The position numbers and the translations under genes were made by a program. A stretch of DNA of 11,308 nucleotides from Gammaproteobacteria bacterium (GTDB lineage Bacteria > Pseudomonadota > Gammaproteobacteria > Steroidobacterales > Steroidobacteraceae), in the NCBI GenBank assembly GCA_003162555.1, contig PMNQ01000217.1, forward strand, positions 2,602-13,909, read 5' to 3'. The notes beneath the pieces are model-generated. The model did no database searches, was not told where the DNA came from, and saw only the letters and a list, made by a program, of their open reading frames with translations. Of this stretch, positions 1,862 through 8,695 are shown piece by piece (positions within the stretch are counted from its first letter, which is position 1; each line of letters opens with the position of its first letter).

Positions 1862-1903
1862 TTGCGGACTATCATGGGCCGTCCTCAACCAGCGCGGATC
1901 CGC

Positions 1904-3112
1904 ATGAGCAGACTGTGGGACAAGGGCGCGCCGCTCGATCAGCGGGTGCTGCAATTCACCGCCGGGGAAGACCACGCGCTCGACGAGCGCCTGGTGGATG
2001 CCGACGTGCGCGCCTCGATCGCCCACGCGCAGATGCTGTGCGCGCAGGGCCTGATCAGTGCGAACGACGCCACGGCGATCTGTGACGGTCTGGTCGCACT
2101 TGGCGCCGAGCACGCGCGCGGCGAATGGCGCATCGGGCTCGAGGACGAGGACGGCCAGACCGCGCTCGAAAAACGCCTCACCGCGCGCATCGGCGCCGCC
2201 GGTGGCCGCGTGCACCTTGGCCGCTCGCGCAACGACCAGGTGCTGACGGCGCTGCGTCTGTACATGCGCGAGGCCCTGGACGAACTGGCGGCCGGGGCTG
2301 AAGCGGCGGCGGCCGCGCTCGATCGCCTCAAGGCTCGCCAGGGCACGATCGCGCTGCCCGGCTACACGCACATGCAGCAGGCCATGCCGAGCTCGGTGGC
2401 GCTGTGGGCGGACGGATTCGGCGCGGAACTGCGCGATGACGCAGAGGGCCTGCGCGCTGCGCGCCGCCGCCCCGGACGGAATCCCCTCGGCTCGGCCGCG
2501 GGCTTCGGTACGCCGGGCCTGCCGCTCGATCGGGCCGCGACCACCCGTGCGCTCGGGTTCGATTCCACGCAGGAGCCGGTCACCGCGGTACAACTCTCGC
2601 GCGGCAAGGCCGAGGCGCAGCTGCTGTTCGAGGTCACGCTGCTGATGCAGGACCTGGGTCGGCTCGCCTCCGATCTGCTGCTGTTCTGCACGCAGGAATT
2701 CGCGTTCGTCGACCTGCCCGAGGCCTTCACGACCGGCTCATCCATCATGCCGCAGAAGCGCAATCCCGACGTGTTCGAGCTGCTGCGCGGCCGCGGCGCC
2801 ACCGCGCTCGCCTGCCTGACCGAAGCGCTGGCGCTGTGCGCAAAGCTGCCGTCGGGCTACCAGCGCGATCTGCAACTGCTGAAGGCGCCGCTGTTCCGCG
2901 GCATCGACCTCGCGCAGCAGAGCCTCGGCATCGTAGCGCCAGCGATCGACGCGCTGCAGTTCAACCCAGCCAACATCCGCATCGATCCGGCGGTGCACGC
3001 GGCCGGCGAAGCCTTTGCGCTGGTGGTCAGCGAAGGCCTGCCATTCCGCGACGCCTACCGGCGCATCGCGGCGCGATTCGCGCGCAGCGCCAGGAAAGGC
3101 CCGACGCCATGA
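1904..3112 (+). CDS. argH: Argininosuccinate lyase
   Basis: It splits argininosuccinate into arginine and fumarate, the last step of arginine biosynthesis, in the cytosol as a tetramer of the fumarase/aspartase superfamily. The three superfamily signatures are present: GRSRNDQV near residues 107-114, GYTHMQQAMP near 153-162 (T155 and H156 in the active site), and the mobile loop SSIMPQKRNPD starting at 279, where S280 should be the catalytic serine. The ATG at 1904 gives 402 residues starting MSRLWDKGAPLDQ, matching the short xanthomonad-like form that lacks the N-terminal GGRF segment. Upstream TTG (1862) and ATG (1874) codons would add an unrelated extension. At 402 residues it is shorter than the roughly 457 of E. 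coli, mostly at the two ends. The stop overlaps an ATG, and the next gene starts 10 bp later. Confidence 0.95.
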   Translation: MSRLWDKGAPLDQRVLQFTAGEDHALDERLVDADVRASIAHAQMLCAQGLISANDATAICDGLVALGAEHARGEWRIGLEDEDGQTALEKRLTARIGAAGGRVHLGRSRNDQVLTALRLYMREALDELAAGAEAAAAALDRLKARQGTIALPGYTHMQQAMPSSVALWADGFGAELRDDAEGLRAARRRPGRNPLGSAAGFGTPGLPLDRAATTRALGFDSTQEPVTAVQLSRGKAEAQLLFEVTLLMQDLGRLASDLLLFCTQEFAFVDLPEAFTTGSSIMPQKRNPDVFELLRGRGATALACLTEALALCAKLPSGYQRDLQLLKAPLFRGIDLAQQSLGIVAPAIDALQFNPANIRIDPAVHAAGEAFALVVSEGLPFRDAYRRIAARFARSARKGPTP

Positions 3113-4455: not shown

Positions 4456-7242
4456 ATGTCCCCGAAACCAGACCTGATACTCGTCGACGGCTCCTCGTAC
4501 CTGTACCGGGCCTTTCACGCCTTGCCGCCGCTGTCCAACTCACGCGGCGAGCCGACCGGCGCCGTGCACGGCGTGCTCAACATGCTGAAGAAGCTGCTGC
4601 GCGATTATCCGGGCACGCGGCTCGCGGTGGTGTTCGACGCGCCGGGCAAGACTTTTCGCGATGATCTGTTTGCGCAGTACAAGGCGCACCGGCCGCCGAT
4701 GCCCGATGACCTGCGCGCGCAGATCGAGCCACTCCTCGCCGCGGTGACCGGGATGGGCCTGCCGCTGCTGCGCATCGTCGGCGTCGAAGCCGACGACGTC
4801 ATCGGCACGCTCGCCACGCGCGCCGCCGCTGCTGGCGAACAGGTGCTGATCTCCACCGGCGACAAGGACATGGCGCAGCTCGTCAATGAGCGCATCACGC
4901 TGATCAACACGATGAGCGACACGCTGCTGGATCGCGCCGGCGTCAAGGCGAAGTTCGACGTGTATCCGGAGCAGATCATCGACTACCTCGCGCTTGTCGG
5001 CGACAGCTCCGACAACATCCCGGGCGTCGACAAGGTCGGCCCGAAGACCGCGGCCAAGTGGCTCAACGCCTACGGCACGCTTGAGCAGCTGCAGGCGCAT
5101 GCCGCCGAGATCACCGGCAAGGTCGGCGACAACCTGCGCGCCGGCACTGACACGCTGGCGCTGTCGCATGAGCTCGCCACCATCCGCTGCGATGTGGAGC
5201 TGACTGTAGATGAAGCGGCGCTTGTCTCGCGTCCGCCGGATACCGCCGCGCTCCGCGAGCTGTACACACGATTGGAAATGCGCTCGTTCCTGCGCGCACT
5301 CGACGGCGGCGATGGCGCCGCGACCGGTGCAGCGGGCGCGCCGGACGCCAGCAGCAGCGGCGGCGCTACCGCAGCAAACGCTGCCGGCAGCGCTGCAGCC
5401 ACTGCCGCACCGATGATTGGCGCAGATCTGCTCGAGCGTCAGTACACGCTGATCGATGACTGGACCCAGTTCCTTGGCTGGCGTGAGCGGCTGGCGCGCG
5501 CGCCGTTGTTCTCGTTCGACACCGAGACTACCGGTCTCGACTACATGCGCGCGCAAATCGTCGGCGTGTCGTTCTGCGTCGAGCCCGGCAAAGGCGCGTA
5601 CGTGCCGCTCGCGCACAACTACGCCGGCGCGCCCGAGCAGCTCGATCGCGCACGCGTGCTCGAATCGCTCCGTGCGCTGCTCGAGGATCCCGCGCACGCC
5701 AAGGTCGGCGCGCACATGAAGTTCGACATGCACGTGCTCGAGAATCACGGCATTCATCTGCGCGGCCAGCGCTACGACACCATGCTGGAATCCTACGTGC
5801 TCAATAGCACCGCGACGCGCCACGACATGGATTCGATGTCCGAGTTTTACCTCGGCATCCGCACCATTCATTTCGAGGACGTGGCCGGCAAGGGTGCGAA
5901 GCAGATCAGCTTCGATCAGGTGAGCGTCGAGACCGCGGCGAATTATTCCGCCGAGGATGCCGACATCACGCTGCGCCTGCATCAGAAACTGTGGCCGCAG
6001 CTCGAGGCGATACCGGCGCTGGCGCAGCTGTACACCGAAATCGAGCAGCCGCTGGTGCCGGTGCTGCAGCGCATGGAGCGCGGCGGCGTGCTGATCGATC
6101 GTGCGATGCTGAGACAGCAGAGCATCGAGCTGGCCGCGCGCCTGGTCGAGCTTGGCGCCGAAGCGCAGCGCGAGGCCGGGCAGGAGTTCAACGTCGAGTC
6201 GCCGAAGCAGCTGCAACAGATCCTGTTCGAGAAACTGAAACTGCCCGTGGTGCGCAAGACGCCGACCGGACAGCCGTCCACTGCCGACGATGTACTCGAA
6301 GAGCTGGCGGCCGAGCACGCCTTGCCCAAGCTGATCCGCGATTACCGCGAGCTGGCGAAACTCCGTTCAACGTACACGGAGAAACTGCCTGAACAGATCG
6401 ATCCGCATACAGGCCGCGTGCACACCTCGTATCACCAGGCGGTCGCGGCCACGGGCCGGCTCTCATCCACCGATCCGAACCTGCAGAACATTCCGATCCG
6501 CACACCCGAGGGGCGCCGCATCCGCCAGGCTTTCATCGCGCCTCCCGGCCAGTTGCTGCTGGCGGCCGACTATTCGCAGATCGAGCTGCGCATCATGGCG
6601 CACCTGTCGGGCGATGAAGGCCTGCTGCGCGCCTTCGCCGCCGACCAGGACATCCATCGCGCCACGGCCGCGGAAGTGTTTGGCATCGCGCCCGGAGCGG
6701 TAAGCGCCGACCAGCGGCGCTCGGCCAAGGCGATCAACTTCGGACTGATCTACGGCATGTCGGCCTTCGGCCTCGCCAAGCAGCTCGGCATCGAGCGCGG
6801 CGCGGCCGCGCAGTACGTCGAGCTGTATTTCGCGCGCTACCCGGGTGTGCGCCGCTACATGGACGACACGCGCGCGCGCGCGAAGCGCGATGGCTACGTC
6901 GAGACCGTCTGCGGCCGGCGCCTGTACCTGCCGGAGATCAACTCGCGCAATCGCCCGCTGCAGCAATACGCCGAACGCAGCGCGATCAACGCGCCGATGC
7001 AGGGCACGGCCGCGGACATCATCAAGCGCGCCATGCTGGGTGTCGACGCCTGGTGCCAGCAGCCGGAAGTGCCGGCGCGGCTGCTGATGCAGGTGCACGA
7101 CGAGCTGGTGCTGGAAGTGCGCGCCGACTTTCTCGACGCGGCCACTGCGCGCGTGCGCGAGTTGATGGTCGGCGCCGCGCAGCTGCGCGTGCCGTTGAAG
7201 GTTGATGTCGGTCACGGCGCGAACTGGGACGAGGCGCACTAG
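4456..7242 (+). CDS. polA: DNA polymerase I, with 5' nuclease, proofreading and polymerase domains
   Basis: It removes RNA primers and fills gaps in lagging-strand replication and excision repair. At 928 residues it has the same length and catalytic numbering as E. coli Pol I. Domain 1 (about 1-285) is the 5' nuclease: VDGSSYLYRAFHAL, VFDAPGKTFRDD, GVEADDVIG, STGDKDMAQLV and GDSSDNIPGVDKVG supply the metal-binding acids. Residues 285-322 form an Ala/Gly/Ser linker. Domain 2 (about 330-515) is the 3'-5' exonuclease, with D355 and E357 in FDTETTGLD, so proofreading looks intact. The polymerase domain has motif A with D705 (DYSQIELR), motif B with K758, F762 and Y766 (KAINFGLIYG) and motif C with D882 (QVHDELVLE). 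The start MSPKPDLILVDGSSYLYRAF fits the family. No Shine-Dalgarno precedes it, and the putative -10 lies only 10 bp upstream, so translation may be leaderless. Confidence 0.99.
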   Translation: MSPKPDLILVDGSSYLYRAFHALPPLSNSRGEPTGAVHGVLNMLKKLLRDYPGTRLAVVFDAPGKTFRDDLFAQYKAHRPPMPDDLRAQIEPLLAAVTGMGLPLLRIVGVEADDVIGTLATRAAAAGEQVLISTGDKDMAQLVNERITLINTMSDTLLDRAGVKAKFDVYPEQIIDYLALVGDSSDNIPGVDKVGPKTAAKWLNAYGTLEQLQAHAAEITGKVGDNLRAGTDTLALSHELATIRCDVELTVDEAALVSRPPDTAALRELYTRLEMRSFLRALDGGDGAATGAAGAPDASSSGGATAANAAGSAAATAAPMIGADLLERQYTLIDDWTQFLGWRERLARAPLFSFDTETTGLDYMRAQIVGVSFCVEPGKGAYVPLAHNYAGAPEQLDRARVLESLRALLEDPAHAKVGAHMKFDMHVLENHGIHLRGQRYDTMLESYVLNSTATRHDMDSMSEFYLGIRTIHFEDVAGKGAKQISFDQVSVETAANYSAEDADITLRLHQKLWPQLEAIPALAQLYTEIEQPLVPVLQRMERGGVLIDRAMLRQQSIELAARLVELGAEAQREAGQEFNVESPKQLQQILFEKLKLPVVRKTPTGQPSTADDVLEELAAEHALPKLIRDYRELAKLRSTYTEKLPEQIDPHTGRVHTSYHQAVAATGRLSSTDPNLQNIPIRTPEGRRIRQAFIAPPGQLLLAADYSQIELRIMAHLSGDEGLLRAFAADQDIHRATAAEVFGIAPGAVSADQRRSAKAINFGLIYGMSAFGLAKQLGIERGAAAQYVELYFARYPGVRRYMDDTRARAKRDGYVETVCGRRLYLPEINSRNRPLQQYAERSAINAPMQGTAADIIKRAMLGVDAWCQQPEVPARLLMQVHDELVLEVRADFLDAATARVRELMVGAAQLRVPLKVDVGHGANWDEAH

Positions 7243-7367: not shown

Positions 7368-7898
7368 ATGAAATCACATGCATTTGCAGTCGCCACCGCG
7401 CTGACCCTCGCCTGCGCCACGGCCCCGGCGTTCAGCGTCGACAAGGGTGTCTACCTGGGCGCGGCCCTCGGCCAGACCGAGAGCGGTCTGCGCGACAGCA
7501 ATTTCAATTTCAAGGATCGCGACCAGGGCTACAAACTGATCGCCGGCATCCGGGTGTTGGGCCTGCTGGCCGTGGAGCTCAACTACGTCGATCTCGGCAC
7601 TTCCAGTGTCGGCGGCGCACAGGCAAAAACCAAGGCTGCCGACGGGTTCGCGATGGTGTTCCTGCCCATCCCGCTCGTCGACGTCTACGGCAAGCTCGGT
7701 TACGTATCGTGGAAGACTGACGCCTCGTCGCCAACCCTGGCTTCGTTCCGCACCACCGGAAGCGATCTGGCCTACGGAGCCGGTGTGCAGGTCCATTTTG
7801 GCAGTCTGTCGGCCCGGCTCGAGTACGAGGCCTTCGATGCCAGGGAAGCCGCCAAGCCGACCATGCTGTCGCTGGGCGCCACCTACACATTTCTGTAA
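7368..7898 (+). CDS. Small outer-membrane beta-barrel protein
   Basis: The 176-residue product starts with a clear Sec signal peptide (MKSHAFAVATALTLACATAPAFS, cleavage near residue 23). The mature part begins VDKGVYLGAALGQ, a typical opening strand of small OmpA-type or OMP_b-brl barrels. Alternating polar/hydrophobic stretches follow: GYKLIAGIRVLGLLAVELNYVDLG, DVYGKLGYVSWKT, LAYGAGVQVHFGSLSARLEYEAFD and the final strand LSLGATYTFL. This fits about eight strands, assembled by the BAM machinery. The protein ends in F-L, not in the more usual terminal Phe. The ATG at 7368 is chosen because the signal peptide begins there; an upstream GTG at 7299 would place 23 polar residues before it. No ligand or function can be inferred. 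Its stop lies just before the structured RNA region at 7899-8053, whose terminator probably also ends this transcript. Confidence 0.8.
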   Translation: MKSHAFAVATALTLACATAPAFSVDKGVYLGAALGQTESGLRDSNFNFKDRDQGYKLIAGIRVLGLLAVELNYVDLGTSSVGGAQAKTKAADGFAMVFLPIPLVDVYGKLGYVSWKTDASSPTLASFRTTGSDLAYGAGVQVHFGSLSARLEYEAFDAREAAKPTMLSLGATYTFL

Positions 7899-8053
7899 AT
7901 CCGGCGAACCCAGCGGGGAACTAACCCCGGAAGCGCGACTCACAACTCCCTGTGAGTGCGAGTAACGTGCTCCCCGCTTCCCTCCCTAAGCGGGCTTCTG
8001 TGCCCCGGTGGCTTATCCCCCCAGATTTCTAGCCACCGGGGCCTTTTATTTTC
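7899..8053 (+). ncRNA. Candidate small regulatory RNA at the polA-engB locus
   Basis: This stretch codes for no credible protein on the + strand but is full of RNA structure. The stems are: P1, AGCGGGGA (7912-7919) with TCCCCGCT (7971-7978), perfect 8 bp; P1a, GGGG/CCCC (7915-7918 with 7925-7928), competing with P1; P2, CGC-bulge-ACTCACA (7934-7944) with TGTGAGTGCG (7951-7960); P3, CCCGCTT (7973-7979) with AAGCGGG (7988-7994), also competing with P1; and the terminator at 8002-8052. The loops are C-rich: ACTCCC, CCCTCCCT and TATCCCCCC. In E. coli the Spot 42 sRNA gene, and in Pseudomonas the ErsA gene, lies between polA and engB. From memory, the Xanthomonas sRNA sX13 also has C-rich loops and lies near polA. 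The 5' end is unknown and no strong promoter was seen, so the RNA could instead be cut from the 3' UTR of the barrel-protein mRNA. Confidence 0.6.
8002..8052 (+). terminator. Strong intrinsic terminator, perfect 12-bp stem
   Basis: GCCCCGGTGGCT (8002-8013) pairs perfectly with AGCCACCGGGGC (8031-8042) around a 17-base loop. It is followed by CTTTTATTTT to 8052. It ends rightward transcription from the barrel-protein gene and/or the candidate sRNA. The right arm also encodes the last residues and stop codon of engB on the other strand. Leftward transcripts would form the same hairpin but have no T run after it. Confidence 0.88.
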
Positions 8054-8628
8054 TGGAACCAGTGGTGCAACTGGCTACGCGCCTGCTCGAGGCCCGTGCC
8101 ATCCACCGCCGAGAAAGCCTGCACCGTGGCGCGCCCGGCCAGCGCCCGTTGCGCCACGGCCAGCGCGCGGCTCAATTCTGCGCGCTTGAGTTTGTCAGAT
8201 TTGCTCAGCAGCACATGCACCGGACAGTGCACGGCCTGCGCCCAGGCGATCAATCCCTCGTCGCCCTCGAGCAGGCCGCGCCGGCTGTCGACGATGAGAA
8301 ACAGGCCGCGCAGCGAAGCGCGCTGTGAGAGCGCCGTGGTCATCGGCGCCCAGGTGGCGCGTTCCGCCGCGCTCGCCTCCGCATAGCCATAGCCCGGCAA
8401 ATCAACGATGCGGCAGCCGGGCGCGAGTTCGAAAAAGTTCAGCAGGCGCGTACGTCCCGGAGTCTTGGCGGTGCGCGCCAGCGCGCGGCGAGCGGTCAGC
8501 GCATTGATGGCGCTGGACTTGCCTGCGTTCGAGCGCCCCGCAAAGGCCGCTTCGGCGCCGGAATCCTCGGGAAAATGGCTTGGGTGCGCGGCGCTCAGCA
8601 ACAGCGCCGCGTTTGGATAGGTGCTCAC
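8029..8628 (-). CDS. engB: Ribosome biogenesis GTPase EngB (YihA/YsxC)
   Basis: A TRAFAC-class GTPase of 199 residues that assists assembly of the large ribosomal subunit and was earlier linked to cell division. G motifs in order: G1 AGRSNAGKSSAIN (about residues 29-41), G2 region KTPGRTRLLNFF, G3 DLPGYGYAEAS, G4 LSKSDKL and G5 FSAVDGTG. The RSNAGKSS and DLPGYGYA signatures are specific to EngB. The GTG at 8628 gives VSTYPNAALLLSAAHPSHFP, the usual family N-terminus. A further-upstream GTG at 8685 would add 19 unrelated residues and overlap the likely cytochrome c4 promoter. No good Shine-Dalgarno precedes 8628. The gene is divergent from the cytochrome gene (67 bp between starts) and converges on the candidate sRNA, whose terminator arm encodes its last codons. 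The polA/engB neighbourhood is conserved in gammaproteobacteria. Confidence 0.97.
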   Translation of the reverse strand: MSTYPNAALLLSAAHPSHFPEDSGAEAAFAGRSNAGKSSAINALTARRALARTAKTPGRTRLLNFFELAPGCRIVDLPGYGYAEASAAERATWAPMTTALSQRASLRGLFLIVDSRRGLLEGDEGLIAWAQAVHCPVHVLLSKSDKLKRAELSRALAVAQRALAGRATVQAFSAVDGTGLEQARSQLHHWFQKIKGPGG

Positions 8629-8661
8629 GGGCGGTGAATGTAGTGTGCGCGGGGCCTGGTG

Positions 8662-8667
8662 TACAAT
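8662..8667 (+). promoter_or_regulatory. Putative -10 box for the cytochrome c4-dsbA operon
   Basis: TACAAT matches five of six positions of the -10 consensus and lies 28 bp before the cytochrome ATG at 8696, giving a leader of about 20 bases. No clear -35 is seen at the right distance. The box sits in the 67-bp gap between the divergent engB and cytochrome starts. Confidence 0.4.
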
Positions 8668-8695
8668 TCCGCGACTCAACGACACGGGTTACATC

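Follow-up and report, generated by a model that had tools for sequence, protein, structure and literature searches.

What is encoded between polA and engB in the Steroidobacteraceae, in a slot that carries Spot 42 in enterobacteria (RF00021, between polA and yihA/engB) and ErsA in Pseudomonas (the polA-engB gap, according to the accessible text of PMC8575079)? We analyzed an 11,308-nt stretch of gammaproteobacterial DNA (the window), in which a sequence-only reading had placed a structured sRNA at 7899-8053. At a probability of roughly three in four, our answer is that the gap encodes a trans-acting sRNA of about 100 nt, a shortened member of a class-wide and mostly polA/engB-linked family, which would be driven by sigma-E and would block its targets with C-rich loops.

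The locus and its genes

The polA gene (4456-7242, forward strand; PF00476, 533.1 bits) is followed on the same strand by a gene for an outer-membrane β-barrel protein (7368-7898; PF13505, 53.0 bits; PF01389, 32.7 bits), which lies upstream of the predicted sRNA. On the reverse strand, the convergent gene at 8029-8685 (PF01926, 57.3 bits, with its reading frame) is presumably engB/yihA, a name that we take from its position and domain. These neighbours, together with the covarying structure described below, bear out the proposal that the slot between polA and engB holds an element resembling an sRNA. The stop codon of engB occupies 8029-8031, so that the 3′ end of the gene overlaps the terminator of the sRNA in its 3′ arm. 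Since the stop and the last codons of engB fall within this arm (8029-8042), the gene and the terminator are under a joint constraint.

The barrel gene does lie between polA and the RNA, as the sequence-only reading had described, but its insertion is not special to the window. Counting the window itself, a similar open reading frame stands upstream of the RNA in at least 44 of the 100 loci compared within the family, a lower bound given that flank lengths vary between loci. On the sequences compared, a barrel gene at this place is thus common in the family. The other 56 loci, which show no similar barrel frame in the flank, still carry the RNA and its promoter element. Elsewhere in the window, an argH-like Lyase_1 frame of 416 aa (1862-3112) has a 3′ end that overlaps other frames and may be truncated or frameshifted.

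Structure of the predicted RNA

The predicted transcript spans 7951-8049 on the forward strand, where the 5′ end is placed from the promoter with an uncertainty of a few nucleotides each way. Its fold has a z score of -6.00, and that of the whole 155-nt stretch 7899-8053 has a z score of -4.66; in both cases none of 200 shuffles is equal. On the promoter reading, about 7899-7950 of the interval originally proposed would lie upstream of the transcript. The covariance model R1, built without the window from nine of 30 fetched family loci, scores the RNA at 44.8 bits (E 9.4e-09). The model R2 scores it at 51 bits, with the window among its 100 training rows. With both models, hairpin 1, hairpin 2 with its CUCCCU loop and the terminator hairpin are all present in register.

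The three hairpins found agree with the stem-loops and the perfect rightward terminator that had been noticed at the outset. Hairpin 1 (GAGUGCG/CGUGCUC) folds at 7954-7972; here, the R1 and R2 models align another register, from 7960. Hairpin 2 (7973-7994) exposes the C-rich loop CCCUCCCU at 7980-7987, which is the proposed binding loop. The last hairpin (8002-8042; hairpin 4 in the numbering of the relatives) is a rho-independent terminator with a perfect stem of 12 bp, in which 8002-8013 pairs with 8031-8042, followed by CTTTTATTTT with a U tract from 8044. Its loop holds a second C-rich stretch, CCCCCC, at 8017-8022. The perfect stem and CTTTTATTTT fit rightward termination. A simple terminator scan of 7400-8300 called no terminator, since it allows loops of up to 8 bases and the loop in the window has 17.

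Conservation and compensatory change in the family

EngB was detected in 198 of 200 same-family genomes, and the 30 loci where it matched best were fetched, among them that of the window. Behind engB, the core CCCCGCU...CUCCCU...GCGGG is intact in 29 of these and cut by a contig end in one. At E <=0.01, R1 matches 172 of the 200 genomes, in 23 of 25 genera; some of the 28 genomes with no match perhaps reflect draft gaps. Two stretches behind engB in genus g16 (L100 and L101) have neither the core, by script search, nor an R2 match, which suggests a lineage-specific loss of the sRNA in this genus. By eye, L100 shows barrel-like coding sequence beside engB.

The comparison with related genomes that had been advised for this locus reveals strong compensatory change, so the sequence-only reading passes the part of its own refutation test that concerns relatives. 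We used 100 of 106 distinct family loci, leaving out the truncated L026, the surplus L059-L061, and L100 and L101 from genomes with no match. In their alignment (A6), 96.5% of 3095 pair cells hold standard pairs, and changes on both sides occur at 29 of 32 pairs. Cells with both-side changes number 371 against a shuffled mean of 99.8, and none of 500 shuffles reaches any of five covariation measures. When the structures are slid by 1-3 columns, only 35-47% of the cells are paired. By helix, both-side changes occur at four of five pairs in the counterpart of hairpin 1, at four of six in the stem of hairpin 2, and, somewhere among the 100 loci, at all 13 modelled pairs of the terminator.

The loci were chosen as marked by R1 or by a core seen by eye, so that their 100/100 presence is by construction, and the alignment is model-fitted; thus, the controls outweigh the raw paired percentage. 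MAFFT alignments had misplaced hairpin 1 with its variable loop (A1 and A2) or shifted the terminator in two rows (A3). They were replaced by a nine-sequence seed (A4) and the model-fitted A6 and A7, both of which lean towards the given structure, hence the shuffle and slide controls. Seven additional matches, all weak (E from 1.4e-4 to 6.5e-4), lay on the strand opposite the RNA and disappeared at a stricter threshold.

Anatomy of the RNA across relatives

Most family relatives carry four hairpins. Hairpin 1 commonly reads GAGYG...CRCUC, and hairpin 3 commonly reads ACCCGG...CCGGGU; its loop is GAGACC in 55 of the 100 rows and CAUCCCCAUG in others. Hairpin 3 is missing in six rows, namely the window (L002), where its site corresponds to 7995-8001, L003-L006 and L008. 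CCCC occurs in the terminator loop of 11 rows, which are these six together with L007, L010, L023, L102 and L104. Going by genome handle, all 11 belong to the window's genus, in which L009, L085 and L089 are members with no such loop, and L007 combines hairpin 3 with a C-rich terminator loop. Since C-rich terminator loops are, by eye, also frequent in the class-wide rows, we read the loop as kept and hairpin 3 as lost; the window's clade would then have lost hairpin 3 and retained the C-rich terminator loop.

The loop of hairpin 2 has a constant core. This core, CUCCCU, is present in 100/100 family rows, from loci selected by R1 or by the larger core seen by eye, and the longer CCUCCCU in 87/100. 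Among 38 class-wide rows the counts are 36 and 26, respectively. By eye, the linker between hairpin 3 and the terminator, commonly (A/G)GUCUG, occurs with both main types of hairpin 3 loop. We do not favour a pseudoknot that would join the GAGACC loop to GGUCU in the linker, since rows with CAUCCCC-type loops keep the same linker (by eye).

Promoter element and sigma-E context

The sigma-E promoter has the form GGAACTT-N15/16-TCNNA. Starting 18 bases behind the stop of the barrel gene, the window holds a putative -35 element of this type, GGAACTA (7917-7923), and, 16 nt after this heptamer, a putative -10 element, TCACAA (7940-7945), in a degenerate and weak form. In 89/100 family loci, GGAAC occurs in the 75 nt ahead of hairpin 1, compared with 8/100 in a background stretch. 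In 85 of those 89, the distance is 34-36 nt, and 50 read GGAACTT. The commonest -10 hexamers at a spacing of 16 in the 89 loci are TCTAAT (21), TCTAAC (11) and TCCAAC (7), and the other 11 family loci have GAAAC or TGAAC at the same position. In the class-wide rows, a GAAC element is in place in 31/38, against 0/38 for the background. The built-in scan for sigma-70 promoters found no sigma-70-like site in 7400-8300. By eye, the upstream sequence of three loci from the phylum search (L224, L225 and L236) is sigma-70-like and not sigma-E-like, which suggests promoter replacement there.

The window's genome encodes one RpoE that passes the NCBIfam threshold of 236.15 bits, with a score of 279.8, and it is followed by a gene whose product carries an RseA_N domain (49.3 bits). 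A GGAACCG-N16-TCAAA element stands about 250 nt ahead of the RpoE match. In all, the RpoE model has 10 matches in this genome, RpoE included. The pattern GGAACTN{16,18}TCNNA is not enriched in the window's genome, where it has 32 hits and the backward control has 51; this, like the weak -10 element of the window, speaks against sigma-E control. Three hits, selected post hoc among 30 of these 32, start 75, 78 and 164 nt ahead of the chosen starts of RpoH, a SurA-like protein and BamD, respectively. The SurA-like protein scores 345.1 bits, under the model's cut-off of 394, and its SurA_N domain scores 126.3 bits. The genes for RpoH, SurA and BamD are members of the sigma-E regulon of E. coli.

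Class-wide distribution and tandem copies

The sequence-only reading had suggested that the RNA may be lineage-specific, which the distribution contradicts: besides the family matches of R1, the model R2, for which the 100 family loci served as training set, matches 112 of 370 class genomes at E <=0.001, in 90 of 273 genera. EngB and/or PolA lies in the flank of 26 of 30 class loci fetched, a set that includes two in-family loci, the window itself and another family member. The 38 matches in these 30 loci are 92.2% paired, with both-side changes at 29 of 32 pairs and 0/500 shuffles equal. A search of the phylum found R2 in 29 of 397 genomes. The class accounts for 27 of these, counting the window's genome, and the two hits outside it (E 7.5e-4 and 8.8e-4) were taken as chance. 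For the loci from this search (L221-L239), EngB is in the flank of 10 of 19. Copies may also be repeated. In gaps that adjoin polA and engB, R2 matches four copies in tandem in each of L126 (G351:C33) and L135 (G444:C8), with a GAAC element ahead of seven of the eight copies by script; L138 and L130 hold two-copy arrays, and genome G741 has five R2 matches.

We compared these hits with those of three Rfam families. In a sample of 184 class genomes at E <=1e-3, anti-hemB matches 92 (10 over its cut-off), sX13 matches 10 (two over) and Pseudomon-1/ErsA matches eight (one over). In 14 control genomes, the numbers are three, one and zero, none over a cut-off. Of the 66 R2 hits assigned to this sample by genome handle, 59 overlap anti-hemB hits. 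Four of the eight ErsA hits overlap both R2 and anti-hemB hits, and three of the 10 sX13 hits overlap R2, two of them anti-hemB too. The comparison took anti-hemB hits to 4.4e-5, and two weaker ones (G267 and G318) would also overlap R2. None of these overlaps involves the three loci that exceed the cut-off for ErsA or sX13. Searched directly, R2 matches both of these sX13 loci in place (E 2.4e-4 and 4.8e-4), and at the ErsA locus (L162) its best hit, of 11.9 bits (E 0.052), is not significant. In a 5-kb stretch of E. coli K-12, the best R2 hit is Spot 42 (13.5 bits, E 0.023), which is suggestive and not significant. Among the 30 class loci fetched, five pass the Rfam cut-off of any family, in each case anti-hemB.

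Proposed action

The structure, its compensatory changes, the constant loop core, the promoter-like element, the position, and the rpoE gene with its RseA_N-domain neighbour are directly supported. From these we infer that the window sRNA is transcribed, depends on sigma-E, pairs through its loops and represses. The stretch would encode a stand-alone, trans-acting sRNA of about 100 nt, driven by a promoter of the sigma-E (RpoE) type under envelope stress, which probably switches it on. Its hairpins would present two C-rich loops, CCCUCCCU and the CCCCCC of the terminator loop, for pairing with G-rich, Shine-Dalgarno-like stretches of target mRNAs. This pairing would mostly block translation of the targets, and the terminator hairpin would both end and protect the sRNA. 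This model, in which envelope stress induces an sRNA whose loops mask Shine-Dalgarno regions, is proposed by analogy with sX13, ErsA and ncS04/anti-hemB. In the window's genome (72% complete), AGGGAGGGA, the full 9-nt loop complement, is present at three places: one is the sRNA's own antisense, and the other two fall within open frames and are not followed, in the next 40 nt, by the start of an open frame of more than 60 codons. Since AGGGAGGGA is rare and none was found at a start codon, any pairing would be shorter or imperfect.

Alternative explanations

The same sRNA could be transcribed here by housekeeping sigma-70 and be constitutive, with GGAAC as a relic or as the site of another ECF sigma factor. 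The degenerate -10 element of the window fits this, as do the description of sX13 as constitutive (accessible text of PMC3771888) and the listing of ncS04, an RNA discussed below, with no fold change in seven conditions (accessible text of PMC5688073); another ECF factor among the 10 RpoE-model matches could also read the site. We nevertheless consider this account clearly unlikely, in view of the near-fixed distance of GGAAC in the family, with GAAAC or TGAAC in the remaining loci, the RpoE-RseA pair in the genome, and the result of the sigma-70 scan. It is highly improbable that the element is a 3′-UTR fragment or terminator of the barrel gene beside engB, with no activity in trans. The closeness of the promoter element to the barrel stop and the overlap of the terminator with the 3′ end of engB would agree with such an origin, and lone terminators are expected between convergent genes. 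However, a terminator would not explain hairpins 1 and 2, which are kept by compensatory changes, or the constant loop core, and the RNA and promoter element persist in the family loci with no similar barrel frame in their flanks of varying length.

A separate matter is whether the likeness to anti-hemB, sX13 and ErsA reflects common descent or convergence, with C-rich hairpins arising independently at a favoured locus. Weak scores also come from C-rich hairpin RNAs that belong to distant bacteria (6C at 20.5 bits, ar14 at 38 bits), the over-cut-off ErsA locus is barely recognized by R2, and in the lists compared for the class sample, four of eight ErsA hits and seven of 10 sX13 hits do not overlap R2. 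Against this stand the overlap of most R2 hits with anti-hemB, the recovery of both sX13 loci in place, the shared gene neighbours and promoter type, and several loci matched by three models together. In addition, the models of anti-hemB, sX13 and ErsA all have hits, below cut-off, among the four tandem copies between polA and engB in G351. Convergence thus appears rather unlikely, and we lean slightly towards a broader model in which anti-hemB, sX13 and Pseudomon-1/ErsA would be branches of one ancient, class-spanning, sigma-E-controlled polA/engB sRNA family, with re-wiring to sigma-70 in some branches, expansion to tandem arrays in others and trimming in the window's clade, and in which Spot 42 may be a far-diverged enterobacterial branch.

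Comparison with known sRNAs

At gathering cut-offs, Rfam has no match in the window. By E-value, the best is anti-hemB (35.7 bits, E 4.9e-07), followed by sX13 (26 bits, E 0.003), Pseudomon-1/ErsA (20.9 bits, E 0.045) and 6C (20.5 bits, E 1.1); Rfam shows no clan for these four. The expectation that the sequence would not resemble Spot 42 was correct, as Spot_42 has no match in the window at E up to 10. Of the other families that the sequence-only reading had named for checking, sX13 and ErsA appear below their cut-offs of 50 bits, and the closest family, anti-hemB, is one that it had not named. The window is also below the anti-hemB cut-off (RF02837, 49.5 bits), but seven of 20 family relatives are above it, so "probably undescribed" does not describe the family even though the window's own copy fails the threshold.

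The anti-hemB RNA has a hairpin 2 with a CCUCCCU loop near-identical to that of the window, and then a terminator hairpin. The alignment with the window covers model positions 1-81 of 81, lacks most of an internal stretch of 21 positions, and is shorter where relatives carry hairpin 3. Since the Rfam model starts at hairpin 2, it omits hairpin 1. In L223 hemB is a neighbour of the RNA, and in L229 the RNA lies between hemB and engB, which fits the Rfam name; in contrast, no hemB is among the eight window proteins scanned. According to the accessible text of PMC5688073, anti-hemB is ncS04 of Burkholderia cenocepacia, an expressed RNA of 105 nt with reported Hfq binding; co-purification with Hfq is given there and in the accessible text of PMC4603805. 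A MicA-like RNA of Bordetella (accessible text of PMC12235514) was found to have no bearing on the window RNA.

ErsA (RF01719) shares with the window RNA the polA-engB gap, in which the window has the barrel gene between polA and the RNA, as well as C-rich loops. It is under the control of sigma-22 (AlgT/U), as described in the accessible text of PMC5819304, and the ErsA locus L162 shows TGAACTT upstream. The sX13 RNA of the Xanthomonadaceae (RF02232) lies downstream of polA and has three stem-loops with C-rich apical loops, which repress mRNAs bearing G-rich motifs near the start codon (accessible text of PMC3771888). The window RNA is likewise downstream of polA, with the barrel gene intervening, and has two C-rich loops compared with three in sX13; the loop sequences differ. 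The mechanism may differ between members, as sX13 is described as Hfq-independent and ErsA requires Hfq to act on several of its targets.

The paper on sX13 also mentions Spot 42 and αr7 sRNAs at polA and remarks on common C-rich loops (accessible text of PMC3771888); thus, the idea of a kind of polA-locus sRNA is already in print. Our limited literature search found no paper that treats ErsA, or Pseudomon-1, together with sX13, and did not find the one-family reading with a sigma-E-type promoter stated.

In summary, an apparently orphan structure is now placed. As far as the sequences indicate, the window RNA is a shortened relative of sRNAs known elsewhere and not an invention of this lineage. 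Rfam appears to sample the class-wide family piecemeal, as anti-hemB and probably also as sX13 and Pseudomon-1/ErsA, and the slot, loop and promoter type in common suggest that a single family lies behind three sRNAs that were named separately. This predicts envelope-stress control via anti-Shine-Dalgarno loops in many genera that carry no Rfam annotation there. In its accessible text, the sX13 paper left open whether the polA loci of other bacteria encode similarly acting sRNAs (PMC3771888), a question on which a class-wide family that may include sX13 itself would bear.
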